Assembly: GCF_000230995.2 (NCBI RefSeq) | Contig: NC_019973.1 | Coordinates: 5,036,001-5,100,000 of the forward strand | Origin: Mesorhizobium australicum WSM2073 | Lineage (GTDB): Bacteria > Pseudomonadota > Alphaproteobacteria > Rhizobiales > Rhizobiaceae | Direction of reading: 5' to 3' | DNA: 64,000 nucleotides | In this document: in pieces, positions 36,420 to 56,684 of the stretch | Numbering within the stretch: position 1 is the stretch's first letter | Layout of the letters: every line of letters starts with the position of its first letter | The notes under the pieces: generated by a model | Told to the model about the DNA's origin: nothing | Seen by the model: only the letters and a program-made list of their open reading frames with translations | Database searches by the model: none | Position numbers and translations under genes: made by a program

Positions 36420-37424
<1,005 letters not shown>

Positions 37425-37449
37425 GCTGGATGGGAACCGTTTTTGCCTC

Positions 37450-40453: not shown

Positions 40454-41871
40454 AAAAAAATTTTGACGATCTGTACAAGGCCTTCGAGGACCGCTTTCGT
40501 GGGTCAAGGGAACTCGTCAAGGGCCGACTTGAGATCTATCAACCCCTGTTGGCGCAGGTGCCGAGGCAACCTGAAGGGCCGACTCTTGCGATCGATCTTG
40601 GCTGTGGACGTGGCGAATGGCTTGAGATACTCACCGAGGCCGGGCTGGAAGCCGTCGGCGTGGATCTGAACGGAGGCATGGCGCAGGAAGCCATCGAACG
40701 TGGACTGAGAATCGAGCTTCGGGATGCGATCGAATATCTGCGAGAGCAACCGGATGAGACTGCGGCCGTCATTTCAGCCTTCCACATGGTCGAGCACGTG
40801 CCTACCGATTATCTGATCGAACTCTTGAACGAGTGCCGCAGAGTGCTGGCCGAAGATGGCCTGCTTATCCTGGAAACCCCGAATCCGGAGAATATTTCCG
40901 TCGGCACGCACACCTTCTATCTTGATCCGACCCATAAAAGTCCCCTGCCCCCGAGCCTGCTCGAGTTCCTGGTGGAGCAGGTCGGCTTCCCCGAAATCGC
41001 GATCCTGAGGCTGAACGGCAGTCCCATGATCGAAGCGGGGCCGACGGAGCGCAGCGTTCACCTCATGTTCGAAGTGGCGCGCGATTATTCCTGCCTTGCA
41101 AGAAAGCGTGACGATCCGGCAAGAGAACTCAAGTCACTTGCGGCGTTTGTGCAAACCGCGTCACAGCAAATGCCCGCCGACGTAGAACAAATAAAAGGTT
41201 GGCTTCATTTCGCTGACGACGAGATTGCCAAGAACTCGGAGACAGTCAAGGGAGTGATATCCTCCACCACGGATCAGCTTCGGGAATTGACCGAAAGCCT
41301 CGCCACCCAGTTGGAGTTAATAAGAGCGGGGCACATTGCACTCACCGACACGGTAGCGTCCCTCGGCAGGGCCGTGGCCGAGCGGGATGCTGAAGTCGCC
41401 CGCCTCCGCCGGAACCTAGCAGATGCCGGCGCGACAACCACGAAGCAATTGGCCGAGCGGGACGCAGAAATCGCCAGACTGAATGCGAGCGTTACGAGGC
41501 GCGCTCCGATGTGGGTTCTCGGCTGGCTTCGTTCCAAAGCAGCAGGCGTGAAGCGAGCTGCGGACAACGCGAAGCACCTGTTTCGGCCATTTGCCACGCA
41601 GGCGATGCTGTTTGTCGTGAAGCATCCGCGTTTGCGCACCCACGCTATCCGTTGGCTGAAGGCTAACCCGGCGCTGCTCGCCCATGCGCGCCTATTCGCG
41701 GCATCTCGCGGACTCGGCGTCGCGTCCATGAAGATTTCCGCTCCACCGCCGGGATCACTCTCCGCTGGACTGGCTGGGATCGATCCGTCGCTGCGTGGAC
41801 TGTCGGCGCATGGGCGCCGAATTCATGCCCAATTGAAGCGCGCGGTTGATATGAAACGACAGAGTTTGTGA
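40450..41871 (+). CDS. Methyltransferase with coiled coil, candidate O-antigen chain terminator (WbdD-like layout)
   Basis: The protein has 473 residues. An N-terminal SAM methyltransferase has motif I DLGCGRGEW (49-57), VDLN (71-74) and FHMVEHV (111-117). Residues of about 243-346 are predicted coiled coil and contain a near-repeat of AERDAEVARL and AERDAEIARL 26 residues apart. The C-terminal 120 residues are basic, helical and amphipathic, without a full membrane span. This order (methyltransferase, coiled coil, membrane-associating tail) is that of E. coli WbdD, except that WbdD has a kinase domain between and none is seen here. It overlaps wzt and the triple glycosyltransferase gene. I infer that it methylates the growing end and sets chain length. 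Confidence 0.72.
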   Translation: MKKNFDDLYKAFEDRFRGSRELVKGRLEIYQPLLAQVPRQPEGPTLAIDLGCGRGEWLEILTEAGLEAVGVDLNGGMAQEAIERGLRIELRDAIEYLREQPDETAAVISAFHMVEHVPTDYLIELLNECRRVLAEDGLLILETPNPENISVGTHTFYLDPTHKSPLPPSLLEFLVEQVGFPEIAILRLNGSPMIEAGPTERSVHLMFEVARDYSCLARKRDDPARELKSLAAFVQTASQQMPADVEQIKGWLHFADDEIAKNSETVKGVISSTTDQLRELTESLATQLELIRAGHIALTDTVASLGRAVAERDAEVARLRRNLADAGATTTKQLAERDAEIARLNASVTRRAPMWVLGWLRSKAAGVKRAADNAKHLFRPFATQAMLFVVKHPRLRTHAIRWLKANPALLAHARLFAASRGLGVASMKISAPPPGSLSAGLAGIDPSLRGLSAHGRRIHAQLKRAVDMKRQSL

Positions 41872-44800
41872 TGCGCATCGTCATCGATATGCAGGGCGCG
41901 CAGGCGACCAATGCGAAGCGCGGTATCGGTCGTTATGTCATGGCCTTCGTTGAGGGACTAGTTCGCAATCGGCGCAAGCACGAGATCATTCTTGCCCTGA
42001 ACGGCGCCTTCTCTGACTCCGCCGCGGATATTCGTACGTATTTTTCCGGTCTATTGCCAGCGGGCAACATCCGCACTTGGATAGCACCCGGACCAGTCGC
42101 AGGCCTACATCCGGAATACACCGGACGCCGCAAAGCGGCCGAGCTTTTGCGCGAGGCCTTTCTCGCCTCGCTCGAACCAGATGTCATCGTCGTGTCCAGC
42201 CTATTTGAAGGCTGTGTGGACGATGCTGCCACCAGTGTTGGATTGCTTCCCCACTCGGCCCTTGTTGCGACTATCCTTTTCGATCTGATCCCGCTCCTCA
42301 ACCGCGATCCTTATCTCGCCAATCCGGCCGTCGCTTCGTGGTACGAATCAAAGCTCGACCATTTGCGCCGTTCGAATCTGCTTCTTGCCATCTCAGAATC
42401 CTCGCGCCGCGAAGCTATTCAGTGGCTCAATTTTTCCCACGAAGAAGTCGTCACTATTTCGGCCGCAGTGGACAACAACTTCCGGCCGCTGCAAATCGAA
42501 GCGGCGCAGGAGACTGCCTTGCGCCGCAAATACAGACTCACGCGCCCGTTCCTAATGTACACTGGCGGTATAGATCATCGCAAGAATATACCTGCTCTGA
42601 TCCAAGCCTTCGGCAAACTCCCACGAAAGCTAAGGAAGGACCACCAGCTCGCGATCGTCTGCTCTGTCGAAGAGAGCGCCCGCGCTGAACTGCTAGAAAC
42701 GGCAAGACTAGCAGGGATTCCTGCGGACGGCCTCGTGCTCACAGGTTTCATCCCCCAGAAGGATCTCGTCGCGCTTTATAATCTGTGCGCACTCTTCGTT
42801 TTCCCCTCGTGGCATGAAGGTTTTGGCCTCCCCCTTCTCGAGGCCATGAAATGCGGCGCGCCTGTGATCGGAGCGAATCGATCGAGCCTGCCGGAGGTTA
42901 TTGGTTTCGAACGGGCGCTGTTCGATCCGTTCTCCGTGCCCGACATGGCAGCTCGCATGGAGCAAGCGCTGAGCGATGCCGATTTCCGCTCGGCGCTAGT
43001 TAGCAACGCCGCCGAACGCGCAAAGCTTTTTTCATGGGATGCCACTTCGTGTGCCGCCCTGGATTCCCTAGAAAAGCTCCATGTCACGCGCAGCCTCCCA
43101 GCCCAATCACCAGCGGTGCCGCTGCGTCGACCAAAGCTGGCTTACCTGTCGCCGCTGCCGCCTAGCCGCAGCGGCATCGCGGATTACAGCGCGGAATTGT
43201 TGCCGGAGTTGGCGCGCCACTACGAAATCGATGTCATCGTTGACCAACCTCACGTGGATAGTCCTTGGGTGAACGCGAACAGCCGCGTTTACAGCAGCAC
43301 ATGGTTTGCCGAAAACGCTCACCGTTATGACCGCGTACTATATCATTTTGGCAACTCCCCATTTCATGGGCAAATGTTCGCTTTGCTGAAACAAATCCCC
43401 GGTGTCGTAGTTCTACACGATTTTTTTCTGAGCGGGATTCAATCTCATCTTGAGTTTTTTGGCGGTATACCAGGCGCATGGAGCCGCAGCCTTTATGAAA
43501 GTCACGGTTTCGAGGCGGTGAGACACCGCTTTTGCATGCAAGACACGGCTGAAACTGCCTGGAAGTATCCCTGCAATTTTGAGCTGATTCGAGACTCTCT
43601 GGGGATCATTGGTCATTCCCATCACTCCAAGCAGTTGGCGCTCGAACACTGCGGCGAAGAGGCAGCGCGCAGATGGTCGTATGTTCCCCTCCTCCGCGCG
43701 CCTGTGGATCTGCCGAGTCGCGACGCCGCACGGAAACGGCTATCGATCCCAGCCGATGAGTTCGTCACCTGCAGTTTCGGCATGTTGACGACGACCAAGC
43801 TGGGTGATCGGTTGCTTGCAGCTTGGACTGCTTCTCGGCTCGGCCGCATGAAAGATAGCAGGCTTGTCTTTGTCGGAGAGTCGCCGCCGAGTGAGTTCGA
43901 CACATCCCTGCGAGCGGCAATTCGTGGCAGCGGGGCCGGACGGCGTGTCTCGATCACAGGATGGACGAATCGGGAAACCTATAGGGACTATCTTGCGGCC
44001 GCGGACATGGCCGTCCAGTTGCGCGGCAATTCGCGGGGGGAAACCTCGGCCGCTATTCTCGACTGCTTGGCTGCAGGCCTGCCGACGATCGTGAACGCTA
44101 ACGGCTCAGCGGCTGAGCTCGACGATCGCGCGGTTCGCAAGCTAAAGGACGGGTTCGGCCCAATCGAGTTGAGCGAGGCCCTAGATAGTCTCTGGGAGAG
44201 TGCCGACGAGAGGAAGCGCCTCGGACAACAAGGTCAAGCCTACCTGCGTGCAAACCACACCCCGCGTCTCTGTGCTGACCGATATGCCGACACTATTGAA
44301 AAATACTATCAGCAAGATCATGCTGGGCTTGGCGGGCTGGTCGGCGCGTTGGCGCAGGACGACTGCTACGGTCTGGAACTGACCGAGCTGGCTGCGGATA
44401 TTTCCGTGAGCATAGCCGTCACACGCGAACGGCCTTCTCTTTTCATCGATATCACTTACCTACGGACTTTCCAGTTACGCACCGGTATCCAGCGTGTAGT
44501 TCGGTCTGTCTTGAACGAATGGCTTGCACATCCGAATCGCGAATATCGCATCGAGCCAATCTTTTTGAGCGACGGCCAGTTTTTCCATGCGAAGCGCTAT
44601 ACTGCGCAGTTCGTCGGCGGGGACGAGAACGCTTTCGAGGACGACCCCGTCAATTTCCGCGCCGGTGACATTTTCCTGGGGCTGGATCTTAATCCTGATA
44701 CCCGTTCGATAGAAGCCGCACCGGCATTCCACCAAATGCGATTGTTCGGCGTTAAAATCGTATTTGTGATCTATGATATTCTTCCAGTTTTGCACCCTGA

Positions 44801-45620
44801 GTGGTGGCCGGCCGGCGGAAGCGATACTCACCGAGCGTGGCTCGTGAATTCATTGGTCGTCGCTGATCAGTTGGTCACGATATCTAAGGCTGTGACCGAC
44901 GATGTTGAAGAATTTTTCGCGGCGGAGTTCCCGACCGGCAGCAAAAAACCTGAAATCGGCCATTTCCATTTAGGCGCCAATATCGGCTGGTCCGATCGGA
45001 CCAGCGGCTTGCCGGACAGTGCCGCCGGCATCCTTGATGCTATTACGGGCACCCCAACCTTTCTGATGGTCGGTACCATCGAGCCGCGCAAAGGGTATGG
45101 TCAGGTTCTCGATGCGTTTGATATCCTGTGGAGCGAGGGGGCATCTGTGAACCTGGTGATTGTCGGGACCCAAGGATGGATGACCGAGGTGTTAGTCGAC
45201 CGAATGCAACTCCATCCCGAAAATGGTAAACGCCTATTCTGGCTTAATAGTGTAAGTGACGAATATCTGGAACGCCTTTATGCTACCTCGGCCTGTCTCC
45301 TCGCCGCCTCCGAGGGCGAAGGTTTCGGTTTGCCGCTGATCGAGGCGGCGCAGCACAGGCTGCCGATCATCGCCCGCAACATTTCGGTGTTCCGAGAGGT
45401 CGCTGGCGACCACGCTTACTATTTCGTGGGATTGGCCGGTGCGGATCTGGCTGACTCTGTTCGCGAGTGGCTAACGCTTTTCAGATCGCGGCGACATCCC
45501 CGATCTGAAAATATGCCTTGGCTAACCTGGGCTCAGAGCGCGAGACAGTTGCTCGACCTTGTTCTGGCGGACGGGGTGTTTCCGGCCGAGGCGGAGCCTA
45601 TCGCTCGCAAAGCGAATTGA
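41871..45620 (+). CDS. Triple-domain GT4 glycosyltransferase, candidate D-rhamnan polymerase
   Basis: A 1249-residue fusion of three GT-B units. Unit 1 (about 1-405) has the GT4 E-x7-E loop EGFGLPLLE (316-324). Unit 2 (about 422-815) has RGETSAAILD (722-731), where the first Glu is shifted by one and the second is Asp, so its donor site may differ. Unit 3 (about 855-1249) has EGFGLPLIE (1150-1158). The start ATG overlaps the previous stop (TGATG). No membrane segments are seen. Multi-domain polymerases such as WbdA of E. coli O8/O9a build mannan; given the GDP-D-rhamnose genes upstream, this one probably builds a D-rhamnose-containing chain with up to three linkages. Confidence 0.85.
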   Translation: MRIVIDMQGAQATNAKRGIGRYVMAFVEGLVRNRRKHEIILALNGAFSDSAADIRTYFSGLLPAGNIRTWIAPGPVAGLHPEYTGRRKAAELLREAFLASLEPDVIVVSSLFEGCVDDAATSVGLLPHSALVATILFDLIPLLNRDPYLANPAVASWYESKLDHLRRSNLLLAISESSRREAIQWLNFSHEEVVTISAAVDNNFRPLQIEAAQETALRRKYRLTRPFLMYTGGIDHRKNIPALIQAFGKLPRKLRKDHQLAIVCSVEESARAELLETARLAGIPADGLVLTGFIPQKDLVALYNLCALFVFPSWHEGFGLPLLEAMKCGAPVIGANRSSLPEVIGFERALFDPFSVPDMAARMEQALSDADFRSALVSNAAERAKLFSWDATSCAALDSLEKLHVTRSLPAQSPAVPLRRPKLAYLSPLPPSRSGIADYSAELLPELARHYEIDVIVDQPHVDSPWVNANSRVYSSTWFAENAHRYDRVLYHFGNSPFHGQMFALLKQIPGVVVLHDFFLSGIQSHLEFFGGIPGAWSRSLYESHGFEAVRHRFCMQDTAETAWKYPCNFELIRDSLGIIGHSHHSKQLALEHCGEEAARRWSYVPLLRAPVDLPSRDAARKRLSIPADEFVTCSFGMLTTTKLGDRLLAAWTASRLGRMKDSRLVFVGESPPSEFDTSLRAAIRGSGAGRRVSITGWTNRETYRDYLAAADMAVQLRGNSRGETSAAILDCLAAGLPTIVNANGSAAELDDRAVRKLKDGFGPIELSEALDSLWESADERKRLGQQGQAYLRANHTPRLCADRYADTIEKYYQQDHAGLGGLVGALAQDDCYGLELTELAADISVSIAVTRERPSLFIDITYLRTFQLRTGIQRVVRSVLNEWLAHPNREYRIEPIFLSDGQFFHAKRYTAQFVGGDENAFEDDPVNFRAGDIFLGLDLNPDTRSIEAAPAFHQMRLFGVKIVFVIYDILPVLHPEWWPAGGSDTHRAWLVNSLVVADQLVTISKAVTDDVEEFFAAEFPTGSKKPEIGHFHLGANIGWSDRTSGLPDSAAGILDAITGTPTFLMVGTIEPRKGYGQVLDAFDILWSEGASVNLVIVGTQGWMTEVLVDRMQLHPENGKRLFWLNSVSDEYLERLYATSACLLAASEGEGFGLPLIEAAQHRLPIIARNISVFREVAGDHAYYFVGLAGADLADSVREWLTLFRSRRHPRSENMPWLTWAQSARQLLDLVLADGVFPAEAEPIARKAN

Positions 45621-45792: not shown

Positions 45793-47976
45793 ATGTCGAA
45801 CAGCCTGAGAACCTTTCTGGCGGGAGTTGTCCTTTTTCCGCTGGTCCTCGTCGCGAACGGAGCGATTCCGGGCTATATGAGCCCTACGACATTGCAGGTG
45901 TTCTGGCTTATCGGCTTCTCGAAGTCTTTCGCAAATTACGGATCTCTGTACGCGCATAATTTCGGGCTTCCTGAGCCGGCAGCAATATCCTTCGGCCTAT
46001 CTGCGGCGCTTCCTGCGGCAATACTGTTGAAAGTCGGGGTATCCCCGGCCAACGCTTATGCAGCGGTGTTCGCCATGTGGCTTGCCACTGCCTTTGTAGG
46101 GGCATTCTGGTTTGCGAGATCAGTGGGGGTTGGACGACCAGCATCATTACTCAGCGCCTTGTTATGGTGCACGTTTCCGGTTGTCTGGCAGCATAATGGC
46201 TACTCGACGCTGGCGCTTGGGATCGCACTGCTGCCGTTCTATTATCTTACGGCCATGAAGGTTTCGATCGACCGGCTCTCTGCGTGGTCGTGTCTTGCCT
46301 TTGTTGCTGCTGCCTTTGTGGCGGTGTTTATGGACGGCTATACGTTCATGATGTTTGCCTCCGGCACCGCTTTGACGTTCGGCTGCGAGCTTGCCAGCCG
46401 CCGTCGCGATCTAAAGATAGATCTGCTCTACCGCGCCTTCATCATTACTCTAACGTTTGCTGCATCCTATGCCGCTTACGCCTTCTATGAGGGAACTTCA
46501 GACTTCGGCGCGCAAGCCATCGATTTTTTCCGAGGATGGGGCGCGAGCCTCGAATTCTTCTTCGTACCGACATCGAACGTGTTGGCGATCCCCGACCTGC
46601 TGGGTTTTAGCATAGCGCGGGCGCCGGATGACTTTTTCGGGGATGCGTCGACGTTCATTTCGACCTTCTGCGCTGGGATCGTGATCGTAGCACTTTACGG
46701 CGCACTCACACTCAGAGAGAGAAGGTTCCACCTATTGGTCTTCGGTTTATTTGCGATCGTCGGGTTCTATATGGCGCTCGGGCCAACAGCAAAATTTCTA
46801 ACCTACCGGCCTGCTGGCGCCAGCCAACTGATGCCTGCTTCATACGGACGGTTCGAAACCGGGAATCGGTGGATTTCTCAATATCTGCCCGGCTTCAGAA
46901 CCATGCGAGCCAGTTACCGCTGGACGGCATTCGGAATGTTCGGGTGTTGGGCTATCTTCGTGTTGACGCTGGCAAGCGGCAAGCTGTCGATGAATACCAG
47001 GGCAGCTCTGATTGTGATCTTGCTGGTCCTCAACATACCCAGCCGCGCACCACTGCACGAATACCGACGCTTTCGAGACATAGTTAACGCGATGACCACT
47101 GAGGTGGCATCGTGGAAACCGCACTTTCATAGGGGGGAGACGGTCGCGTTTCTGCCTTACGGCAATGACTTTCTCATCAATTATGTCGCAAGCGAACTAG
47201 ACATCCGAACCTACAATGTGGGGGGAGACAAGAACCTCATGTCCGCCATGAGCAACTGGCCCGATGAGATGACCGGCTTTGAACAGGGAAAAGTGACGCC
47301 TGAGTTCGCGATGAGAGTGAAGGCGTTTCTTGAGAGCGGCAAAGCCGATGCCGTCGTTCTCCCATATATCAGTCTGCTGTGGTCTGCTTACGACTGGCCG
47401 GCACCGAATGAGCGGGAACAAGAACTCTCATCGATCGCCAAAGCTCTCGACGCCGAGGATCGGTATGATGCGGACTTTATGGAGCACTACGCCGTTATCC
47501 GGCTTGCTCACGGTCTCGATCCGGCGGGCACCTTATCTGTCTGGAACGCGATGCCGCCGATAGATCTGGACAAACCAGTGAACTTCGCGAGCGGGGAAGT
47601 CGGCGACAACTATCTCGTTGAACGCGGTTGGTACCCGCCCGACCCGACAGGGACATGGTCTCGCGTAAAGCAGGCATCAATCCTGGTCGACGTGACCGAC
47701 ATTCCGGACGGAGGGAGGTTGAGCGTTACATTTTCAGCCTTCGCCCCTGGAGATACCTGCACCGAAGTCGAAATCAGTAGTGGAACGACAGTGATGTTAC
47801 GCCACAATTACTGCAACGTATCTGGTTGGATTTCCGCCGAACTTCCGCGAACCGGTTTGGCGAAGAATGGGCAGTTGGATTTCCGCGTTGATCAGTTACG
47901 TTCTCCCGCATCTTACGGGAGTCTCGATACTCGAATGCTCGGCATCCTCCTTCAATCTCTGTCGGTGGTCAAATAA
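45793..47976 (+). CDS. Large membrane protein, possible GT-C-type glycosyltransferase
   Basis: A protein of 727 residues from the ATG at 45793; an upstream start at 45721 is possible. About ten to eleven hydrophobic helices occupy residues 5-430. A soluble part follows, and the last 130 residues are beta-rich, with GWYPPDPTGTW near 635-645 and a Cys pair, suggesting a beta-sandwich in the periplasm. The layout resembles GT-C enzymes that use lipid-linked donors, but I do not recognise a named family or a sure catalytic Asp/Glu. The gene is 172 bp after the triple GT and convergent with the next. Base composition is lower in GC than the glg genes. Function is unproven. Confidence 0.6.
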   Translation: MSNSLRTFLAGVVLFPLVLVANGAIPGYMSPTTLQVFWLIGFSKSFANYGSLYAHNFGLPEPAAISFGLSAALPAAILLKVGVSPANAYAAVFAMWLATAFVGAFWFARSVGVGRPASLLSALLWCTFPVVWQHNGYSTLALGIALLPFYYLTAMKVSIDRLSAWSCLAFVAAAFVAVFMDGYTFMMFASGTALTFGCELASRRRDLKIDLLYRAFIITLTFAASYAAYAFYEGTSDFGAQAIDFFRGWGASLEFFFVPTSNVLAIPDLLGFSIARAPDDFFGDASTFISTFCAGIVIVALYGALTLRERRFHLLVFGLFAIVGFYMALGPTAKFLTYRPAGASQLMPASYGRFETGNRWISQYLPGFRTMRASYRWTAFGMFGCWAIFVLTLASGKLSMNTRAALIVILLVLNIPSRAPLHEYRRFRDIVNAMTTEVASWKPHFHRGETVAFLPYGNDFLINYVASELDIRTYNVGGDKNLMSAMSNWPDEMTGFEQGKVTPEFAMRVKAFLESGKADAVVLPYISLLWSAYDWPAPNEREQELSSIAKALDAEDRYDADFMEHYAVIRLAHGLDPAGTLSVWNAMPPIDLDKPVNFASGEVGDNYLVERGWYPPDPTGTWSRVKQASILVDVTDIPDGGRLSVTFSAFAPGDTCTEVEISSGTTVMLRHNYCNVSGWISAELPRTGLAKNGQLDFRVDQLRSPASYGSLDTRMLGILLQSLSVVK

Positions 47977-48018
47977 GGCACGCAATCGTCGTGCAAATTC
48001 TTATGTTAAATCCGTGGG

Positions 48019-49026
48019 TCAAATAGAGAAAGCATTCCGCCAACCTTGGACCCCATCAACGGAAATCCGGGGGCGTCCATCAACTAATTCAATGATCGCC
48101 GGGCGCTCCATTTCGAGCTTCCAGCCCTCATTCAGGAGGGCGGTCATGATGCGTCCCTCGATCTGGCGGGAATGCGTGCCGATGACGATGTAGCGAACGA
48201 ATTTATTGAGGTCACTGATTGCTGCTTCGACAAAGTCTGCCTCGCCGCCCTGGATATCGATGTGCAGGAGGTCAACTGGCTCGCCTTTGACGATCTCGAC
48301 CAGCGGGACGGCGTCAAGTTGCTGATACTGACCTGACGTCGAGGCTTCCTTAATCTGTGCCGCCGACGCTTCCAGGATAGGCTCCGAGCCCCAGGAGGCG
48401 CCCGGATTTTCGACTATCGGAAAGAGTGCCACTCCCTTCCTGGGCGCGGCGACACCATGGATGATGCTGAACTCCTTTTCCGAAAAGCCGTTGGTCGCCA
48501 TCGCCTCGTGAGCATAGGCGACATGCTCACTGTCCCCCTCGATGCCGATCAACTCTACCTCCAGTCCCCGGTTGCGTGCGGCGACGCCTGTGTTGTTCAG
48601 CCAGCATCCCCAGCCACATCCCAGTTCCACCACACGAAAGCGACCCGAGGCGAGATCGACGGCCCTCAGTGCAGCCGCCCATTCCGCTATGTCGGCGTGC
48701 CAATTGGCTGGGATCGGTATCGGCTCGACGGTTCCCGCCTTGCCGCCGAGAATGCCCGGGAAGAACCGGGGCGAAACTTTGACGCCGAGAAAGTTCGTGA
48801 CATAGGATGGGTGCGCCTGCAGGTCGCTCCGCGCATGGCTATTCATGGCGCCTATTGCATCGAAGCTGCAGTTATAGTGGAAGAATACGCTACCCGATCC
48901 CGGTTCTCCGGACGCTCGCAACTGCTGGTTTTCCCGAAGCAGGGCATCGCGTTGTGCCAAAAGACTGGCACGATCCTGCCACAGCCTCCTAATCTGCGGT
49001 ATTCTGAGCGCAGCGGTCTTGAGCAT
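48019..49026 (-). CDS. FkbM-type SAM methyltransferase
   Basis: The protein has 335 residues from the ATG at 49026, which has GGAGG 8 nt upstream; the longer frame to 49101 overlaps the preceding gene. A short N-terminal coiled coil (LLAQRDALLRENQQLRAS) is followed by a methyltransferase fold with motif I VELGCGWGCW, IGIEGD and HIDIQGGEADFV. The last motif is characteristic of FkbM-type O-methyltransferases, often acting on sugars of O-antigens or glycolipids. It is the last gene of the minus-strand cassette with the flippase-like protein, a second methyltransferase and a GT2. Confidence 0.78.
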   Translation of the reverse strand: MLKTAALRIPQIRRLWQDRASLLAQRDALLRENQQLRASGEPGSGSVFFHYNCSFDAIGAMNSHARSDLQAHPSYVTNFLGVKVSPRFFPGILGGKAGTVEPIPIPANWHADIAEWAAALRAVDLASGRFRVVELGCGWGCWLNNTGVAARNRGLEVELIGIEGDSEHVAYAHEAMATNGFSEKEFSIIHGVAAPRKGVALFPIVENPGASWGSEPILEASAAQIKEASTSGQYQQLDAVPLVEIVKGEPVDLLHIDIQGGEADFVEAAISDLNKFVRYIVIGTHSRQIEGRIMTALLNEGWKLEMERPAIIELVDGRPRISVDGVQGWRNAFSI

Positions 49027-49087
49027 TGTTAACGCCTCCGGGATTAAACTCGATGTCCAGCAGGACCTAACGATCTGCTGCGTTCCG

Positions 49088-50011
49088 TCAGTCTCGTTCA
49101 TTGGTTATCCAATAAGAGCGACGGGCGACCTGCCCGCCGGCGAAAAAGAGAAGGTCGCCCAGGATAGTGACCGCTCGCCCGATCACCACCGCCAGCAAAA
49201 TGACTGGGCTCGAGCTGAGCCCTCCAAGCAGAAAGAGCAGTACCGCCTCCCTGACGCCGAGCCCGGCCGGCGCACCCGGAGTTAGAAGCCCCAAAAGCCA
49301 GGCCAAGATATATGCTCCAGCGATTGCCGGGTAGAGCGCGAATTCGCGAGCTCCACCTGCAAGGTCGAAGACTGCGACGAAGACCAGGCCCGAAAGCCCG
49401 AGAAACCCGAAATAGCAGATCGCGGCGTGGCAAAAAGCGGCACCGCCGAGATGGCCAATCAGCCAAAACGCGATAGCTACTGCCGCGACGAACGAAACCC
49501 AGCCGAACCAATCCGGCAAACCGGTCACGACCAGCGGCAACACAAGCGGCGAAAAGAGAAGTCCGCCGACAATGAGGGCCGCCACTTCATAGGCGGTCGA
49601 CTTGACGAGCGGTCCGTTGCCGATGCCGGCCGCCACGCCGATCGCCTGCCGTCCTGCAAATTGAAAGATATTGCCGGGAACATATTTGGCGAGTTGCGAA
49701 ATGGCATAGGTGCGAATCGCCCAAGGCCGCGAGACGGGAGCACCAAGGTGGTGCAGAAGATGTCGCCAGCCGAGAGCAAGCAGCAGGTTCGACACTCCAT
49801 AGACGCCGGCCAAGGCTATAATGGCGGTGTAGCTGGCTGCTCCCATGCGGCGAAAATCGATCTCGCCGGTGTACCCCTGGAGTCTGATCCCTACGAAAAC
49901 AACACCGGCCAACCCCAGGAAGGCTCCAATGCGATTGAGCCAGGTCTTGGCACGAGGGCCAAGCGCCACGATCAATGCCTTTTCTTCGGCTTGCAGTGCA
50001 TCATGGTCCAT
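49088..50011 (-). CDS. Flippase-like integral membrane protein (lysylphosphatidylglycerol synthase TM family)
   Basis: The protein has 307 residues and about eight hydrophobic helices. Features of the UPF0104/LPG_synthase_TM group are seen: SQLAKYVPGNIFQFAGRQA in the middle and a late loop PGAPAGLGVREAVLLFLL. Members of this group are widely found beside dolichol- or polyprenyl-phosphate sugar synthases and are candidates for moving lipid-linked sugars across the membrane, without proof for most. The ATG at 50011 overlaps the preceding methyltransferase by 40 bp; a GTG at 49969, just after that stop, is an alternative. The GT2 two genes upstream could make its substrate. Confidence 0.72.
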   Translation of the reverse strand: MDHDALQAEEKALIVALGPRAKTWLNRIGAFLGLAGVVFVGIRLQGYTGEIDFRRMGAASYTAIIALAGVYGVSNLLLALGWRHLLHHLGAPVSRPWAIRTYAISQLAKYVPGNIFQFAGRQAIGVAAGIGNGPLVKSTAYEVAALIVGGLLFSPLVLPLVVTGLPDWFGWVSFVAAVAIAFWLIGHLGGAAFCHAAICYFGFLGLSGLVFVAVFDLAGGAREFALYPAIAGAYILAWLLGLLTPGAPAGLGVREAVLLFLLGGLSSSPVILLAVVIGRAVTILGDLLFFAGGQVARRSYWITNERD

Positions 50012-50613
50012 GGCAGCGGAGACAGAACCTCGACCACATCGAAAAACTCTGAAGCCAGCGCGACGATGCCGCGCTGCGACCAGTGCTGCAGATGGCCGGG
50101 CGTGTTGCCCAAGGCCGAGATGTATTTCCCGCGCGCCAAGTTCAGGACACGCCAGATCGGCTCCCGGGGTACGCTGAGGATCAGGTCCGACCTGACGATA
50201 CGCTCCAGCGCTTGCAATGCCTTCCGCGGCTCCTCGAGATGCTCCATTACTTCGCAACATACGATGAGATCGGCGCTGTCTGGTTCAGGGGCCACCTCAT
50301 AAATACTGCGGACAGCGAAACGCCGGTGGTCAATATCCTTTCCGCGCGCGTTCTCCTTTGCCATTCCGATGACTTGGGCAGAGAAATCGGTGCCTCGCGC
50401 GTCGATACCCTGCTCCAGCCAGCGCATGACCCAATAGCCTTCTCCGCATCCGACTTCGTGAATAGTAGCGGGCCTCACCTTAGTCACCAAGCTGGACAAT
50501 GCCGCTTCGAAACCTTGCACCATCCGGCGGGCGATCGGGTTGCGCGTGCCATATTTGTCATAGGTGTTGCCTATGACGATACCGTCTTCCGCCTGCCCGC
50601 CAGCTACCTTCAT
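49972..50613 (-). CDS. Class I SAM-dependent methyltransferase
   Basis: The protein has 213 residues from an ATG at 50613 with AGGA in front; an ATG at 50661 inside the GT2 gene gives 229. Motif I is HEVGCGEGYW, followed by GTDFS, and CCEVMEHLEEP marks motif II, all in the order of small-molecule or sugar methyltransferases. The C-terminal half (ALGNTPGHLQHWS) is like ubiE-type lipid-linked glycan methyltransferases. It sits between the GT2 and the flippase-like gene, overlapping the latter, so it may modify a lipid-linked sugar. The acceptor is unknown. Confidence 0.75.
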   Translation of the reverse strand: MKVAGGQAEDGIVIGNTYDKYGTRNPIARRMVQGFEAALSSLVTKVRPATIHEVGCGEGYWVMRWLEQGIDARGTDFSAQVIGMAKENARGKDIDHRRFAVRSIYEVAPEPDSADLIVCCEVMEHLEEPRKALQALERIVRSDLILSVPREPIWRVLNLARGKYISALGNTPGHLQHWSQRGIVALASEFFDVVEVLSPLPWTMMHCKPKKRH

Positions 50614-50617
50614 CTTC

Positions 50618-51697
50618 CTATCCTGCTTTCCTGCTGAAGCGGGCTTCTGCGTAGTTGCCATTCTCTCCCTGCGTGGAACGCTGCGTATAACGAATGTCTT
50701 CGAGAAGCTTGCGGTTGGCGGCGATCACGTCGGCCAGAAAGGCGACGAGAAGGGACTGGAAACCCATCGTCATCAGCACGCCCGCCAGGACCACCGACTG
50801 AATATGGCCGCTAACCCCTTCGGTCAAATAGAAATAAAGGAAGCGCAGGCCGAGCAAAAAACCAAGGCTGAAGAGGATAGCCGCGATCCAGCCGAAAAAC
50901 CGAGCCGGCTGGTAAATGACGAAGATACGTATGATCGTGAAGATGGAGCGCTTCAGATAGGAAGGAATGCTCTTCACCAACCTTGACGGCCGCAAATCAC
51001 CATTGACTCGGATCGGAACCGAGACCACGCGCATGTTCTTGCGCCCGGCCTGGATGATGGTTTCCAGCGTATAGGTATAGTTGTTGAACACGATCAGGCG
51101 CTGGGCCGCGTTTTTCGAGATCGCGCGAAAGCCGCTCGGGGCATCCCGCACATCAGTGCCGCTGGTCACCCGCACGACCCAGCTGCCCAACTTCTGCAGA
51201 AGCTTCTTCACCGGGGAGAAGTGCTCTATCTCCGATATCGGCCGCGCGCCCACGACCATATCCGCACGCCCCTCCAGCACCGGCCTGGTGATCGCCGGAA
51301 TGTCGGCGGCGCGATACTGGTTGTCCGCATCGGTGTTGACAATCACGTCGGCGCCGCGCGCGAGGCAAGCTTCGATGCCGGTCATGAAGGCATAGGCGAG
51401 ACCGCGGTTGCTGGTATGACGCACAATGTGGTTTACGCCGTTTTCCTCGGCGACCCTCACCGTCTCGTCGCTGCTGCCGTCATCGATGACCAGCCATTCG
51501 ACGCTGTCAAACCCGGTGACGGTCCGCGGCAGATCACTCAGCGCTGTCGCAAGCGTCTCGGCTTCGTTATAGCAAGGAATCTGGATAATCAGCTTTGGCA
51601 GCGGCGTACTCTCGAATTGGATCCTGACACTCCGTGCGTCTACCACCATCGGGCGGAGGCGCAAATGATTTTTCCTCGGGAAAACCGTATTTCCCAT
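50618..51697 (-). CDS. GT2 polyprenyl-phosphate glycosyltransferase (DPM1/GtrB-like)
   Basis: A protein of 359 residues. The GT2 A-fold domain begins KLIIQIPCYNEAETL; it has DDGSSDETV (72-80) and the DxD-type NTDADNQY (121-128), and APSGFRAIS. Two hydrophobic helices near the C-terminus (about 262-325) fit GtrB-like enzymes, which charge undecaprenyl phosphate with a single sugar at the cytoplasmic face. It is the first gene of the minus-strand cassette and divergent from the GT4 pair. Start codon choices at 51697 and 51649 both lack a strong ribosome-binding site. Confidence 0.85.
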   Translation of the reverse strand: MGNTVFPRKNHLRLRPMVVDARSVRIQFESTPLPKLIIQIPCYNEAETLATALSDLPRTVTGFDSVEWLVIDDGSSDETVRVAEENGVNHIVRHTSNRGLAYAFMTGIEACLARGADVIVNTDADNQYRAADIPAITRPVLEGRADMVVGARPISEIEHFSPVKKLLQKLGSWVVRVTSGTDVRDAPSGFRAISKNAAQRLIVFNNYTYTLETIIQAGRKNMRVVSVPIRVNGDLRPSRLVKSIPSYLKRSIFTIIRIFVIYQPARFFGWIAAILFSLGFLLGLRFLYFYLTEGVSGHIQSVVLAGVLMTMGFQSLLVAFLADVIAANRKLLEDIRYTQRSTQGENGNYAEARFSRKAG

Positions 51698-51762: not shown

Positions 51763-51836
51763 CCCTCGCAGCGTTGTCCTGCTATCGCCGCAAAAATGTC
51801 CGGCATTCTTTGCCTAATTCGCTTCCGGAGAGACGA

Positions 51837-52961
51837 TTGAAAATCGGGATCGACGGCAGGAATCTCGGATCAGCCACCGATGGGATTGGCAGGTTCGTGC
51901 ACAATTCGGTCAAAGCGCTGGTGGCGCTCGGCGCCGATGTGTTTGTCTATGCGCCGAGCAAGATCAATGCGAGTTACGATATTCCGCCTGGCGTTTCCGT
52001 CCAGGTCGCCAACTTCAATGGTCCCTACGCGAGGGCGTTCTGGGGACAGGCAATCCTGCCCTCCTGGGCCTTGCGCGATCGGGTGGATGTCGTGTGGGGG
52101 CCGTCCCATCGTCTGCCCTTCATCCTGGACGGCCGCATCGGGCGGGTGGTCACGATTCACGACCTCGTCTGGCTGTATGCCGCGCAGACCATGCGGACCC
52201 GGACCTGGCTGGGCGACCGCTTGATGATGAAGCCTGCGCTGAAAACCGCTGATGTCGTGGTCGCGGATTCGACAGCAACGGCCACCGCCCTGGCCGCCGA
52301 GTTCCCCTGGCTGAAATCGCCGATCAAGACGGTCGCACCCGGCACAACCGCGCTGCCGGCTCCGAGCGATTTTTCGAGTTTGGCGCCTCTCGGCATCACC
52401 AAGCCCTACGCCCTTTTTGTCGGCACGCTCGAGCCGCGAAAGAACCTCGGCAACCTGATTAAGGCCTATGGCCTCCTGCCGCAGAGCGCCCGGTCGCGCT
52501 GCGACCTGGTTATCGTCGGCGGCAAGGGCTGGAAGCAAACGGGCCTGGCCGACGACGTGCGCGACGGCGCACTTGGGACGAATATCAAGTTTACCGGCTT
52601 CGTCGATGACGCGACGCTCGCCACGCTCTATTCGAATTGCCTCTTTCTGGCGATGCCATCGCTTTACGAGGGGTTCGGCTTTCCAATCGTCGAGGCACAA
52701 TCTTTCGGCAAACCGGTGCTGACGTCGAACACCTCGTCAATGCCTGAAGTGGCGGGAAACAATGCCGTGCTCGTCGATCCGGAAGATCCTGCGGCAATTG
52801 CCGCTGCATTCAGTCGCCTCTGTACCGATGCGGAATTCCGGAACGGGATCGCCGCGGATGCGAAGAAAAATGCCGGGCGCTTCACCTGGGAGAACCACGC
52901 CAAGGGCATGCTGCAAATTTTTGAGCAGGCCATCGAGCAAAGACGGAAGACCCGCGTTTGA
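51837..52961 (+). CDS. GT4 glycosyltransferase (WbpY-like)
   Basis: A protein of 374 residues with the two Rossmann domains of a GT4 enzyme. It starts KIGIDGRNLGSATDGIGRFV, has FVGTLEPRKNL at the domain junction, and the E-x7-E loop EGFGFPIVE near 285-293. The start is a TTG at 51837 behind GGAGAG. It resembles the rhamnosyl- and mannosyltransferases of A-band/O9-type chains, with GDP-sugar donors probable. Its stop overlaps the next GT4 (TTGA), making a two-gene unit. Acceptor and linkage are not readable. Confidence 0.83.
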   Translation: MKIGIDGRNLGSATDGIGRFVHNSVKALVALGADVFVYAPSKINASYDIPPGVSVQVANFNGPYARAFWGQAILPSWALRDRVDVVWGPSHRLPFILDGRIGRVVTIHDLVWLYAAQTMRTRTWLGDRLMMKPALKTADVVVADSTATATALAAEFPWLKSPIKTVAPGTTALPAPSDFSSLAPLGITKPYALFVGTLEPRKNLGNLIKAYGLLPQSARSRCDLVIVGGKGWKQTGLADDVRDGALGTNIKFTGFVDDATLATLYSNCLFLAMPSLYEGFGFPIVEAQSFGKPVLTSNTSSMPEVAGNNAVLVDPEDPAAIAAAFSRLCTDAEFRNGIAADAKKNAGRFTWENHAKGMLQIFEQAIEQRRKTRV

Positions 52962-54076
52962 AAGTCCTGCACTTCTTCAAGACCTACTGGCCGGATACGT
53001 TTGGCGGCGTGGAGCGGACGATCCATGCCATCGCGCAAAGCACGGCGCGCCACGGCATCGAAACCGAAGTGCTTTCGTTGAGCCGAATCCCTGGCGAGAA
53101 CACACGGGCTTTCGATGGGCATATGGCCCGCAAGGCGAAACTGGATTTCGAGCTGGCATCGACCGGTTTTTCACGCGAGGTCTTTCGGGAATTCAGAGCG
53201 CTCGCCAAAAATGCCGACCTGATACATTACCATTTTCCATGGCCGTTCATGGACATCGTGCATTTTCACGCCCGTCACGGCAAACCGACGGTCGTCACTT
53301 ACCATTCCGATATCGTCAAACAGAAACTCATCCTGCCTCTTTATCGACCGCTGATGCTGCGCTTCCTGAAGGACGTCGACGCTATCGTCGCGACGTCTCC
53401 GGACTATTTGAAATCGAGCCCCGTTCTCAGAGCCTTGGGGGGCAAATCGACGATCATTCCCATCGGCATAGATGAAACGGCTTATCCCACGCCGACCGAA
53501 GCCGACAACAGCTGGTGCCAAGCGGCTGTGGCGGAGCCTTTCGTGCTATTCGTCGGCGTCTTGCGCTATTACAAGGGGCTGGACGTGCTGATTGAGGCAG
53601 CCGACAGGATCAGGTGCAAGATCGTTATTGCCGGGTCGGGGCCTATCGAGGAGAGCCTCAAGCTTCAGGCCAAGACGTTGCGCCGCAACAATGTGATGTT
53701 TCTCGGCGAGGTCACGGAGCAGCATAAGATGGCTCTGCTGCGCAACTGCCTCGGCTTCGTTTTTCCGTCTAACCAGAGGTCGGAAGCCTACGGGCTTTCA
53801 CTGGTGGAGGCTGCCATGTGCGGCAAACCGATGATTTCGTGCGAAATTGGAACGGGAACAAGTTATGTGAACAAAGCCGGCGAGACGGGGCTAGTCGTTC
53901 CGTCTTCAAATCCAGCACACCTGGCCGAAGCCATCAACCAGATCGTCGATTCGCCCGTCGAAGCAGCGAATTGGGGGCAAGCTGCCCGTGATCGCTACAT
54001 CAGGCTCTTTACAGCCGACAGGATGGGAAGGGCCTATGCCGATCTCTACCGCCAGCTCGATAGTGGCCGCCGCTGA
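52958..54076 (+). CDS. GT4 glycosyltransferase, WbdB/WbpZ-like D-rhamnosyl or mannosyltransferase
   Basis: A protein of 372 residues. It matches the WbdB/WbpZ group in several family-specific stretches: KVLHFFKTYWPDTFGGVE at the start, TYHSDIVKQK (about 110), VGVLRYYKGLDVL, RSEAYGLSLVEAA and SCEIGTGTSYVN, and a late FTADRM. In E. coli O9a, WbdB adds the first mannoses (adaptor) for the polymerase; in P. aeruginosa A-band the equivalents use GDP-D-rhamnose. This ties the pair to the gmd/rmd and Wzm/Wzt system although it is about 7 kb from it. It starts with a TTG overlapping the preceding stop. The gene ends 61 bp from the convergent rfbD. Confidence 0.85.
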   Translation: MKVLHFFKTYWPDTFGGVERTIHAIAQSTARHGIETEVLSLSRIPGENTRAFDGHMARKAKLDFELASTGFSREVFREFRALAKNADLIHYHFPWPFMDIVHFHARHGKPTVVTYHSDIVKQKLILPLYRPLMLRFLKDVDAIVATSPDYLKSSPVLRALGGKSTIIPIGIDETAYPTPTEADNSWCQAAVAEPFVLFVGVLRYYKGLDVLIEAADRIRCKIVIAGSGPIEESLKLQAKTLRRNNVMFLGEVTEQHKMALLRNCLGFVFPSNQRSEAYGLSLVEAAMCGKPMISCEIGTGTSYVNKAGETGLVVPSSNPAHLAEAINQIVDSPVEAANWGQAARDRYIRLFTADRMGRAYADLYRQLDSGRR

Positions 54077-54137: not shown

Positions 54138-55037
54138 TTAGGGGCCGTTGGAGCCCCCGCTTACGAGACGATGGACCACTTCTCGGGCCGACTTCTGCCA
54201 GTCCGGCGCCGTCCATCCGAATGCCGCGCCAAATTTCGCGCTCGATAGCCGAGAGTTGGCGGGGCGGCGCGCCTTGGTTGGGTAGTCCATCGTCGTGATA
54301 TCCCCTACCCGCGCCCAGGGACCACCAAACTTCAGGCTTGTGTCGAGGATATGACCGGCGAAGCCGCTCCAGTTGGTCTCGCCACTGCCGGCCAGATGAC
54401 AGATGCCGAACCCGGCGAAGTCCTTGTTGCGGTGCAGCATGGTGGCCGCATGCAGGATCGCGTCGGCGACATCAAGCGCGGATGTGGGATTTCCCCATTG
54501 ATCTGATACCACCGAAATCTCATCGCGGTCGGCGGCGAGCCGCAGCATGGTTTTCACGAAATTCTTGCCAAACGGACTGTAGACCCAGGCGGTGCGCAGG
54601 ATCAGGTGGCGCGGATTGGCTGATGCCACCGCCTGCTCGCCGGCTAGCTTGGAGGCGCCGTAGACACCGAGCGGCGCCGTCGGGTCGGTTTCGATATAGG
54701 CATCGGCCTTGGTTCCATCGAAGACATAGTCGGTCGAAAGATGGATGACCGGCACGCCCAGCCTCGCCGCGGCCTCCGCCACCTTGCCGGCACCGGTCGC
54801 GTTCACCGCAAAGGCCAGATCGGGCTCGTCCTCGGCCTGGTCGACGGCGGTGTAGGCGGCAGCGGATACGACGATATCAGGCTTGGCGCCCGCGATGGCG
54901 TCGATGATGGTGTCGGGCCATGCCAGGTCAAGCTCCGGGCGACCGATGGCGACGACCTCCACGCCCGCGCGCGCCTGGCCGGCCGCGAGCAGGCTTGCCG
55001 CGACCTGGCCGTCGCGTCCGGTGACAAGCAGCCTCAC
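54138..55037 (-). CDS. rfbD: dTDP-4-dehydrorhamnose reductase
   Basis: The last enzyme of dTDP-L-rhamnose synthesis, 299 residues. It begins [15 protein letters not shown], has [21 protein letters not shown] with the SDR Tyr and Lys, and [18 protein letters not shown]. The GTG at 55037 overlaps the rfbB stop (GTGA); upstream frame extension to 55109 is inside rfbB. It ends the rfbA-rfbC-rfbB-rfbD group. Confidence 0.95.
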
Positions 55038-56104
55038 GCGCCCACCTTGCGGGCTTCGCCCAGTCTTTCGCCGGCATAGCGCTGTTCGCGGATCGGCCCC
55101 CACCACCATTCGTTGTCGAGGAACCAGTCCACGGTCCTGGCAAGGCCGCTGTCGAAATTCTCCCTGGGTGTCCAGCCGAGCTCGCGGCTTATCTTGGTGG
55201 CGTCGATGGCGTAGCGGCGGTCGTGGCCGGGACGGTCGGTGACGAAGGAGATCAGCTCGCGATAGCGCCTGCCGCCGGCGCGCGGACGCCTGGTGTCGAG
55301 CAGGTCGCAGATCGTCTCGACGACGGCAAGGTTGGTGCGTTCCGAATTGCCGCCGACATTGTAGCTCTCGCCCGGTTGCCCTTTCGTGGCGACGAGTTCC
55401 AGGGCGCGCGCGTGATCCTCGACGAACAGCCAGTCGCGCACATTGGCGCCGGCGCCATAGACCGGCAGCGGCTTTTCGTCGAGCGCGTTGAGGATGACGA
55501 GGGGGATCAGCTTCTCGGGAAAATGATAGGGGCCGTAATTGTTCGAACAGTTGGAAAGCACGACCGGCAGGCCGTAGGTCTCGTGCCAGGCGCGCACCAG
55601 ATGGTCCGAGGCCGCCTTCGAGGCGGAATAGGGCGAGGACGGCGCGTAGGGCGTCTCCTCGACGAACATGCCGCCGTCGAAAGACAGGTCGCCGAACACC
55701 TCGTCGGTGGAGACGTGATGGAAGCGGAAGCGGCTTTTCCTGTCCTCGGACAGGCCACGCCAGTATTCCAGCGCGGCGTTGAGGATCTTGTAGGTGCCGA
55801 CGATGTTGGTCTCGATGAAGGCGCCCGGTCCGTCGATCGAGCGGTCGACATGGCTTTCGGCGGCCAGGTTCATGACGATGTCGATGTCGTGCCGGCGCAG
55901 AAGGTCGAGCACCGCCCTCTCGTCACAAATATCGGCCTGGGCGAAGCTGTAATTATCGGCGTTCTCGATCGGCCGCAGCGACGCCAGATTACCCGCATAG
56001 GTCAGCTTGTCGAGATTGGTCACCCGGTAGGCCGGGTTGGCGCACAAATGCCGGCACACCGCCGAGCCGATGAAGCCGGCACCGCCCGTCACCAGAAAAT
56101 TCAT
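55034..56104 (-). CDS. rfbB: dTDP-glucose 4,6-dehydratase
   Basis: An SDR enzyme of 356 residues forming dTDP-4-keto-6-deoxyglucose. The nucleotide loop TGGAGFIGS is at 6-14, HVSTDEVFG at 130-138, and YSASK has Y159 and K163. The substrate-binding stretches [14 protein letters not shown] and [16 protein letters not shown] are intact. The ATG at 56104 is chosen over 56122. It lies 25 bp after rfbC and overlaps rfbD. Confidence 0.96.
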
Positions 56105-56129
56105 ACCGCAGTCCTCACGCAAACACCCA

Positions 56130-56684
56130 TCAGGCGAATACCTCGGCGACGGCGAGCAGCGGCGCCTTGAGGTCCTTGTCCGAAAGCTGGAAGCCGCCGG
56201 CCAGCGACGGCCACTCGATATCGATGGCAGGATCGTCGAAACGGATCGACCGGTCGTGCTCGGGCGAATAGGTGTCGGTCACCTTGTACAGCACCTCGGT
56301 GTCGGGCACGAGCGTGACGAAGCCGTGCGCGAAGCCCCTGGGCACCAGGATCTGGTTGCCTTTTTGCGCCGACACTTCGAGGGGGACCCATTTTCCGAAG
56401 GTCTTCGAGGCGCGGCGGATGTCGACGGCGACATCGAGAATGCTGCCGCGGATCACCCGCAGCAGCTTGTCCTGGGCACGCGGCGCTAGCTGGTAATGGA
56501 GCCCGCGCAGCACGCCCGCGGCGGCGGAATAGGAGTGGTTGTCCTGCACGAAAACCAGGTCGATGCCGGCCTGCGAAAAACGCTCGGCATTGTAGGTTTC
56601 CATGAAGAAACCGCGCGCGTCCCCATGGCGTTTGGGAATGATTTCCAGCAGACCTTCGATGCCAAGGGATCTCACCTCGAGCAT
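56130..56684 (-). CDS. rfbC: dTDP-4-dehydrorhamnose 3,5-epimerase
   Basis: A cupin-fold epimerase of 184 residues. GVLRGLHYQ holds the catalytic His63, and [14 protein letters not shown] holds Tyr133; QDNHSYS is the substrate-contact segment. The ATG abuts the rfbA stop (TAA then ATG), so translation is coupled. All four enzymes for dTDP-L-rhamnose are therefore present in the order rfbA, rfbC, rfbB, rfbD. Confidence 0.96.

Follow-up and report, generated by a model that had tools for sequence, protein, structure and literature searches.

A cassette of four genes that recurs in Proteobacteria and Firmicutes lies inside an O-antigen locus in a 64,000-nucleotide stretch of the Mesorhizobium australicum WSM2073 chromosome (the window; bases 5036001–5100000 of a 6.2-Mb single-contig genome). 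It encodes a family 2 glycosyltransferase (GT2), a methyltransferase (MT), a candidate flippase resembling the UPF0104 family and a 727-residue multi-spanning membrane protein (GTC), and the linkage of these genes goes beyond chance. We consider it probable that the cassette serves the extracytoplasmic side-chain glycosylation of an O-antigen exported by an ATP-binding cassette (ABC) transporter, using a methylated donor and a flippase of an uncommon type. The overall logic is already known from the Gtr, CsbB/GtcA/YfhO and GT136 systems, as described in excerpts of the papers cited below, and is not a new kind. An earlier note on this DNA had proposed the four genes, together with an adjacent FkbM-type methyltransferase gene, as a glycan-decoration cassette; its genes and their linkage are confirmed (all five open reading frames (ORFs) are open at the coordinates in Table 1), and its interpretation is partly supported.

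Recurrence and linkage of the cassette

Relatives of GTC were located in named genomes with two peptide patterns and a search with alignment A1 (the window GTC plus 70 of 120 listed relatives), one genome being taken per species, which gave 62 loci related by descent. The hosts include Microvirga, Rhizobium, Mesorhizobium, Pseudomonas, Halomonas, Luteibacter, Cupriavidus and Desulfosarcina as well as the Firmicutes Desulfosporosinus and Desulfofundulus, so the recurring neighbourhood in other genomes that the earlier note had named as a check was found. Partners were scored with the window's own proteins at thresholds set after the first locus scan (GT2 300, MT 120 and flippase 25 bits); the ORF filter of that scan hid some MTs on overlapping frames, and later counts took all ORFs. 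Within 5 kb of the GTC gene, GT2 was present in 51/62 loci, the flippase candidate in 56/62, MT in 40/62 and all three in 34/62. Restricting the count to the 48 loci whose flanks exceed 5 kb in both directions (which drops, here only, the 14 with a flank of 5 kb or less) gave 44, 46, 33 and 29, respectively, with GT2 and flippase candidate both present in 43, while the zone from 5 to 10 kb held one GT2 match, no flippase match and one MT match, the two matches being the L029 locus's own cassette. The order GT2-MT-flippase-GTC in one direction, which parallels the proposed reaction order (charge, methylate, flip, transfer), was the commonest (27/62), the remaining 35 loci showing 15 other arrangements. 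Compared with these loci, the window departs from the commonest order, its GTC gene opposing those for GT2, MT and flippase candidate; the convergent ends lie 42 bp apart, just as the earlier note had described.

The cassette is rare, patchy and linked. The named genomes closest to the window proteins in the search for relatives were Mesorhizobium, and among 146 genomes of this genus GTC was found in 8, GT2 in 22 (E 1e-60; 11 of these at ≥84% identity) and the flippase candidate in 18 (E 1e-10; 9 of these at ≥56% identity), the two identity lines having been chosen after viewing the matches. All 8 carriers of GTC have a close GT2 and flippase gene, 44 to 5720 bp away; Fisher tests on this co-occurrence take genomes as independent, which genomes are not. 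A sample of 398 genomes of the phylum contained GTC in 2 (E 1e-30) and MT in 4 (E 1e-40), including both GTC carriers. Seven Mesorhizobium loci (L081–L087), of which L082, L083, L084 and L085 apparently lie on the very contigs of L004, L007, L006 and L029 so that this comparison overlaps the linkage counts, share 84–89% identity with the window in GT2, 83–86% in MT and 69–75% in the flippase candidate, whereas GTC identity is 38–48% in six and 79% in one. This pattern of conserved donor genes and a variable candidate transferase suggests a common donor.

That the five genes are unrelated neighbours forming no system is scarcely credible: the convergent orientation in the window would fit such a view, and the linkage counts in the 62 loci, the 146 Mesorhizobium genomes and the 398-genome sample refute it for the four cassette genes. 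It stands for FkbM, which outside Mesorhizobium-type loci is no regular neighbour and reaches low scores at best. The window FkbM protein passes the PF05050 cut-off (25.3 against 22.7 bits) and falls below that of TIGR01444 (27.5 against 37.7 bits); best FkbM scores elsewhere were 622 bits in L004, 122 in L029 and 17–25 in L006, L007 and L022, and the gene looks intact in L081 and L082, with a short piece only in L085 and L087. The cassette of five families envisaged by the earlier note was therefore rejected in favour of four recurring families plus FkbM as an accessory gene strong only in Mesorhizobium-type loci. The FkbM slot itself is variable, being occupied in L085 by an acyltransferase-3/SGNH protein with an FkbM piece (10958–13374) and in L087 by the short FkbM piece (9626–9871).

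Protein families and substitution of components

The window GT2 matches Pfam PF00535 (9.5e-22) and, as the earlier note had stated, ends in two hydrophobic stretches, which are visible in the sequence. Among solved proteins, it is most closely related to dolichyl-phosphate mannose synthase (PfDPMS, 4e-15) and to ArnC-type undecaprenyl-phosphate-sugar transferases, and its best NCBIfam model is AglJ (114.7 bits, cut-off 325); by family, it would load a sugar onto polyprenyl phosphate. The window MT matches Methyltransf_11 (3.1e-14) and belongs to a compact family: in alignment A4 (the window MT plus 24 of the 55 loci with an MT match) the motifs GCGEG, SVPREP and PLPW occur in nearly all rows, and the 24 members, from Firmicutes to a cyanobacterium, are 40–86% identical to the window protein. 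The MT profile matches 53 solved methyltransferase sequences, including D-glucose O-methyltransferase and WbdD, the O-antigen end methylase.

The third protein had been described as a flippase of the LPG-synthase-TM type rather than GtrA. No GtrA match was obtained at E up to 1, and the family is borne out by relatives, PF03706 (LPG_synthase_TM) being found in 20 of the 120 listed and seven being named YbhN (UPF0104 family) at source. The window protein's own PF03706 match falls short of the cut-off (18.3 against 33.4 bits), so that its assignment rests on these relatives. The cut-off is passed by the members in L013 and L072 and not by those in L024 and L012, and the profile of alignment A3 (the window flippase plus 43 of the 76 loci with a flippase match) reaches MprF chains (E 0.006–0.011) over the PAG-GV-E stretch. 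The protein is UPF0104-like through its relatives and a candidate flippase. In archaea, excerpts of PMC5898192 propose a flippase role in glycosylation for UPF0104/COG0392-type proteins encoded near AglD-like glycosyltransferases and PMT/STT3-like proteins; if our reading is right, the cassette adds evidence, from genome context in bacteria, for UPF0104 proteins as flippases of polyprenyl-linked sugars.

GTC has at least 603 relatives (E ≤0.001) among 8000 candidates scored, two of which (P0044 and P0094) carry automatic UniRef names of the glycosyltransferase-like kind. Its alignment-averaged hydropathy has 13 peaks up to residue 407 (somewhat fewer at a stricter threshold), followed by a long soluble rest; GT-C enzymes have 7–13 membrane helices plus an extracytoplasmic domain, and the positive-charge pattern left the topology of GTC unsettled. 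Ten residues (R247, D268, R276, D284, K334, R372, R376, E449, D459 and D479) are conserved at 90% or above. The earlier note found no recognised family for the large protein; this is true of its membrane part, whereas the C-terminal domain is DUF7024-like. We keep "GT-C" as a working name for what is, from its sequence, a candidate only. Two possible links to known families were rejected. DUF6044, a GT-C-like family, matched weakly in 2 of the 35 members of alignment A2 (best 3e-4), and five weak matches in ten genomes comprised one known GTC gene (L120) and four genes that are not GTC; the sole YfhO match in those ten genomes (L125) lies outside the GTC family. If the proposed role is correct, it would provide a function for a large unannotated family of membrane proteins.

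The last 140 residues of GTC form a separate domain, whose profile matches 38 of 62 named relatives and none of the 20 relatives shorter than 690 residues, nor four longer ones. Through this domain alone, the family profile reaches other large membrane proteins of sister cassettes, one of which matches DUF7024 at 1e-34 and the C-terminus of the OpgB model at 3e-25; Escherichia coli OpgB itself carries DUF7024 at 220 bits. The window GTC has no DUF7024 (PF22895) match at E up to 1, a level at which 8/35 relatives match (best 9e-8), and the hidden Markov model (HMM) of its domain scores 12.3 bits on OpgB, whereas profile comparison with hhalign gave a probability of 98.3% against OpgB plus three proteins of the second cassette type and 89.8% against OpgB alone. 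These comparisons indicate a remote relationship between the GTC domain and its counterpart in OpgB. OpgB modifies periplasmic glucans, and it is therefore a reasonable inference that the domain lies in the periplasm and recognises a glycan; the carbohydrate-binding domain of GT136 (PMC11127046, excerpt) offers a parallel. If so, DUF7024, which is named in no paper found among open-licence PMC papers, would be a testable glycan-recognition domain common to OpgB and GTC. The places concerned are 47548–47973 of the window and 17151–19442 of L119; DUF7024, remotely shared by OpgB and large membrane proteins of O-antigen decoration cassettes, may bind glycan in the periplasm.

Components of the cassette are exchanged in related loci. 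A second set of genes shares the O-antigen locus in L071 (11808–16105), L086 (13133–17446) and L087 (2521–6807) and consists of GT2, a 228-residue protein, a 122-residue protein and a 702/707-residue protein, the sets in L086 and L087 being assigned by gene sizes and order. In L071 these match GT2, Methyltransf_11, ArnF (46.5 bits, under the model cut-off of 99) and DUF7024 (the 702-residue membrane protein), respectively. That an ArnE/F-like protein stands where the UPF0104 protein would be speaks for the flippase assignment and suggests that this slot can be filled by an ArnE/F-like undecaprenyl-phosphate-sugar flippase. Loci L074–L077 combine a GT2 of 61–62% identity, an MT, a weak UPF0104 match and a large protein; L116 encodes GT2, a 550-residue protein that matches no Pfam family, MT and flippase; and in L117 an MT and a UPF0104-like protein are accompanied by a PMT_2 protein (27.4 bits, cut-off 26.1), with no GT2 match in this 17-kb locus. 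The large proteins of L072/L073 and the 702/707-residue proteins have only the C-terminal domain in common with GTC, as does, weakly, the 716-residue protein of L071. No significant GTC match was found for the large proteins of L074, L075, L076, L078, L079 and L080, and no full-length one among the other large proteins of Mesorhizobium cassettes. These large proteins beside related GT2 genes of further Mesorhizobium genomes measure 837–901 residues as cut in L074–L076 and L078, and 881 residues in L079 and L080; profile scans gave weak matches only for that of L074 (YfhO, 0.028) and none for that of L079.

Proposed function, phage copies and alternatives

The mechanism proposed here builds on the observed genes, their conserved linkage and order, and the families to which GT2, MT, the flippase candidate and the C-terminal domain are related; from these we infer each enzymatic step, the sugar, the acceptor and the order of methylation. 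At the cytoplasmic face of the membrane, GT2 would charge undecaprenyl phosphate with a sugar taken from a nucleotide donor, and MT would methylate this sugar either ahead of lipid loading or after it. The lipid-linked sugar would then be carried to the periplasmic side by the UPF0104-type protein, and GTC would move it onto the exported polysaccharide, its OpgB-like domain perhaps aiding in holding the acceptor; another methyl group, specific to the strain, may come from FkbM. No sugar-synthesis gene was seen that belongs to the cassette, and the donor is therefore likely a common nucleotide sugar. Excerpts of PMC6274867 describe the O-antigen of Mesorhizobium loti NZP2213 as 6-deoxytalose with O-acetyl and some 2-O-methyl groups and contain no tie to the cassette; those of PMC6804347, on O-antigens of plant-associated Pseudomonas, gave no help on its sugar. 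If the proposal is true, the cassette represents a route for adding O-methylated side sugars outside the cytoplasm.

Several known systems resemble the cassette, the papers again being represented by excerpts. The Gtr system (GtrA, GtrB and GtrC of Salmonella, Shigella and their phages; PMC4413052) likewise unites a GT2 polyprenyl-phosphate-sugar synthase with a flippase and a large transferase in the membrane, and occurs on chromosomes and in prophages. The cassette differs in having a UPF0104-type protein, with no GtrA match, an MT within the set, a candidate transferase of no named family and phage records without GT2 or flippase matches; GtrC proteins are diverse, and GTC was set beside them through Pfam and NCBIfam only, without a match. 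The GT136 pentofuranose systems (Kelly et al. 2024, PMC11127046) also decorate O-antigens after polymerization. Their 11-helix transferase has a C-terminal carbohydrate-binding domain, GTC being also multi-spanning with a C-terminal domain, and an extra enzyme alters the lipid-linked sugar (an epimerase there, a methyltransferase as proposed here); instead of GT2 and a UPF0104-type protein, they employ a polyprenyl-phosphoribose synthase using phosphoribosyl pyrophosphate and a MATE flippase. Gram-positive systems such as CsbB/GtcA/YfhO (2021 review, PMC8035078) follow the same logic of GT-A synthase, flippase and GT-C enzyme, and some of their GT-C enzymes (YkoS and CsdB) also lack a recognised domain. 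Their flippases are of the GtrA or Wzx type, and "methyl" is absent from the main text of the review. The archaeal system of an AglD-like glycosyltransferase, arCOG00899 and a PMT/STT3-like protein (2015, PMC5898192) shares a GT2-type synthase, a UPF0104/COG0392 protein and a PMT-like transferase, whereas it glycosylates proteins, uses a transferase of another family and, in the excerpts, comes without mention of a methyltransferase. E. coli phosphoglycerol transferase I, OpgB (MdoB), has only the C-terminal DUF7024 domain in common with GTC, remotely, and possesses a Sulfatase domain (PF00884) for which GTC has no match. Neither the combination of such a system with MT and a UPF0104 flippase nor the GTC family was found in a literature search of open-licence PMC papers.

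Relatives of GTC also occur on three phage-like IMG/VR records (L113, 7938–10202; L114, 7941–9698; L115, 7938–10202). A tblastn search with the 727-residue protein gave no match in INPHARED phages or PLSDB plasmids. In L113 and L114 the gene lies between virion/tail-fibre genes and the endolysin gene; L115 shares this ORF order and has a GTC-type protein identical to that of L113, and the 51-kb L114 record also carries a terminase, a head-tail adaptor and, reaching the end of the record, an integrase ORF. Over 574 residues, the L114 copy shares 79% identity with a chromosomal counterpart, the cassette protein in Mesorhizobium M1C (L004/L082), pointing to gene exchange between phage and O-antigen locus. 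The position of the gene and the lack of GT2 and flippase matches on these records suggest that the phage copies may act in lysogenic conversion using host donors, which makes receptor modification with a borrowed host donor testable. A fuller version of our proposal is possible and more tentative: a widespread four-component system that would decorate exported polysaccharides with a pre-methylated sugar, with an MT dedicated to the lipid-linked sugar and a new transferase family, in which the donor genes stay conserved, a swap of the transferase would change the serotype and temperate phages would carry the transferase alone, masking their receptor by means of the host's methylated donor.

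Several observations weigh against the proposed function. Beyond the low score of the window flippase candidate, they include loci in which the set is incomplete: GT2 is missing within 5 kb in 11/62 and the flippase in 6/62, and no partner at all was found in four (L031, L033, L058 and L063, each with less than 5 kb on one side). Furthermore, across L081–L087 the 1250-residue backbone glycosyltransferase is as divergent as GTC (30–43% identity over 32–41% of its length, taken from the single best BLAST piece); for this reason the candidate transferase may co-adapt with the backbone in Mesorhizobium.

The acceptor is the subject of the first alternative, in which the same lipid-linked-sugar logic serves another envelope glycan or a protein and the cassette is merely located in an O-antigen locus. 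Wzm/Wzt-type genes were found in 21/62 loci and Gmd in 32/62 in the flanks examined, leaving 41/62 without the former, where the acceptor may differ, and 26/62 without either; the sister loci L116/L117 and L074–L080 also lie in other surroundings. We nevertheless regard this alternative as unlikely. In the window and in all seven of L081–L087, the O-antigen frame encloses the cassette, with the triple-GT4 gene on one side and GT4 genes on the other, the C-terminal domain is related to that of an enzyme of periplasmic glycan, and the phage copies sit beside tail-fibre genes, a place fitting a receptor-modifying gene.

A second alternative, that GTC is some other periplasm-facing enzyme (a polymerase, a ligase or an enzyme of acyl or phospho transfer) linked to the donor set by chance, draws on the absence of recognisable GT-C features. 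GTC has no Pfam, NCBIfam or PDB sequence match, and its profile compared with 24 PMT_2 proteins of relatives (of 25, one short one being dropped) gave a probability of 0.7%. GT-C enzymes usually carry a DxD-like motif (PMC8035078, excerpt), and the GT136 enzyme was inactive after replacement of D31 (PMC11127046, excerpt); in GTC, no acid is conserved at residues 23–60 (summed Asp/Glu column frequency 0.7 in A1), the boundary of this first outer loop being a hydropathy estimate, and residue 61 is Glu in the majority of rows, yet not conserved. The phage records without GT2 or flippase match point the same way, although they are possibly fragments with no positive control among them, and there is a precedent in a phage GtrC that works without GtrA and GtrB and is reported to be an O-antigen acetyltransferase (PMC4413052, excerpt). 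Against this alternative stand the presence of both GT2 and flippase candidate with GTC in most of the well-flanked loci, the absence of Acyl_transf_3, Wzy_C and sulfatase matches in the window GTC and 35 A2 members, the PMT_2 protein that accompanies a related MT and flippase in L117 and the glycosyltransferase-like names of two relatives, and it appears distinctly unlikely.

The third alternative overlaps our preferred explanation and concerns one step: MT would act in the cytoplasm on the backbone of the polysaccharide or on its end, and the sugar transferred would be plain. MT is missing within 5 kb in 22/62 loci (in L029 it lies at 5056 bp), so transfer does not need it; the end methylase WbdD is among the solved sequences that the MT profile matches, and the window encodes two further methyltransferases (Table 1). 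Conversely, the window MT gene lies between those for GT2 and flippase candidate and overlaps both, its protein is conserved with cassettes of several phyla, and the second cassette of L071 has another MT in the same slot, beside the ArnF-like protein. Cytoplasmic methylation of the polysaccharide thus seems doubtful, and methylation of the donor sugar remains our preferred reading.

The cassette in its locus

Features of the window are listed in Table 1. The GTC gene has an alternative start at 45721, which would give 751 residues, and the 86%-identical relative P0002 likewise has 727. The flippase ORF is listed from 50260; the ATG at 50011 (307 residues), within the end of the MT gene, is the likely start. 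With this start, the minus-strand genes overlap by 14 bp (FkbM/flippase), 40 bp (flippase/MT) and 44 bp (MT/GT2).

Table 1 Features of the window discussed in the text, with positions counted from its first base.
Feature	Position	Strand	Basis
Phosphomannomutase-type, presumably; supply of guanosine diphosphate (GDP)-6-deoxyhexose	33349–34965	+	ORF; named from sequence
ManC-type, presumably; GDP-6-deoxyhexose supply	34965–36380	+	ORF; named from sequence
Gmd; GDP-6-deoxyhexose supply	36435–37424	+	Profile match
GDP-mannose-dehydratase-like short-chain dehydrogenase/reductase; GDP-6-deoxyhexose supply (four genes span 33349–38406)	37384–38406	+	Profile match
Wzm-like ABC permease	38439–39224	+	ORF, profile
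Wzt with Wzt_C domain	39227–40453	+	ORF, profile
Methyltransferase with long C-terminal tail, putatively chain-terminator-like	40450–41871	+	Profile; position for the terminator-like role
1250-residue protein with three GT4-type stretches	41868–45620	+	ORF, profiles
GTC, 727-residue multi-spanning membrane protein, candidate lipid-linked-sugar:O-antigen glycosyltransferase	45793–47976	+	ORF, relatives, linkage, hydropathy
GTC C-terminal domain (about residues 586–727), DUF7024-like, candidate glycan-acceptor-binding	47548–47973	+	Profile comparisons
FkbM-type methyltransferase, accessory, local to Mesorhizobium	48019–49101	-	PF05050, locus comparison
UPF0104/LPG_synthase_TM-like membrane protein, 307 residues, candidate polyprenyl-phosphate-sugar flippase	49088–50011	-	Profiles, relatives
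Cassette-type S-adenosylmethionine-dependent MT, candidate methylase of lipid-linked or nucleotide-linked sugar	49972–50661	-	Pfam, alignment, profiles
GT2 ending in two hydrophobic stretches, candidate synthase of polyprenyl-phosphate sugar	50618–51697	-	Pfam, NCBIfam, solved relatives
Two GT4 glycosyltransferases	51774–54076	+	ORF, Pfam
rmlD, rmlB, rmlC and rmlA, presumably; deoxythymidine diphosphate (dTDP)-L-rhamnose synthesis	54138–57566	-	ORFs; named from sequence

The five genes are flanked by a plus-strand O-antigen block (Gmd to the triple GT4) and by two GT4 genes, which is the arrangement of an ABC-transporter-dependent O-antigen locus. The lower guanine plus cytosine (GC) content that the earlier note had remarked on is present at the five genes (0.55–0.60, against about 0.61–0.65 in the first 22 kb of the window); equally low values extend over about 33–53 kb and 57–64 kb and therefore mark the whole glycan region and not the cassette. 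A separate block of exopolysaccharide type adjoins the O-antigen locus at 57719–63400 and comprises a Wzy_C protein together with ORFs that, named from sequence only, are presumably Wzc-like and Wza-like.

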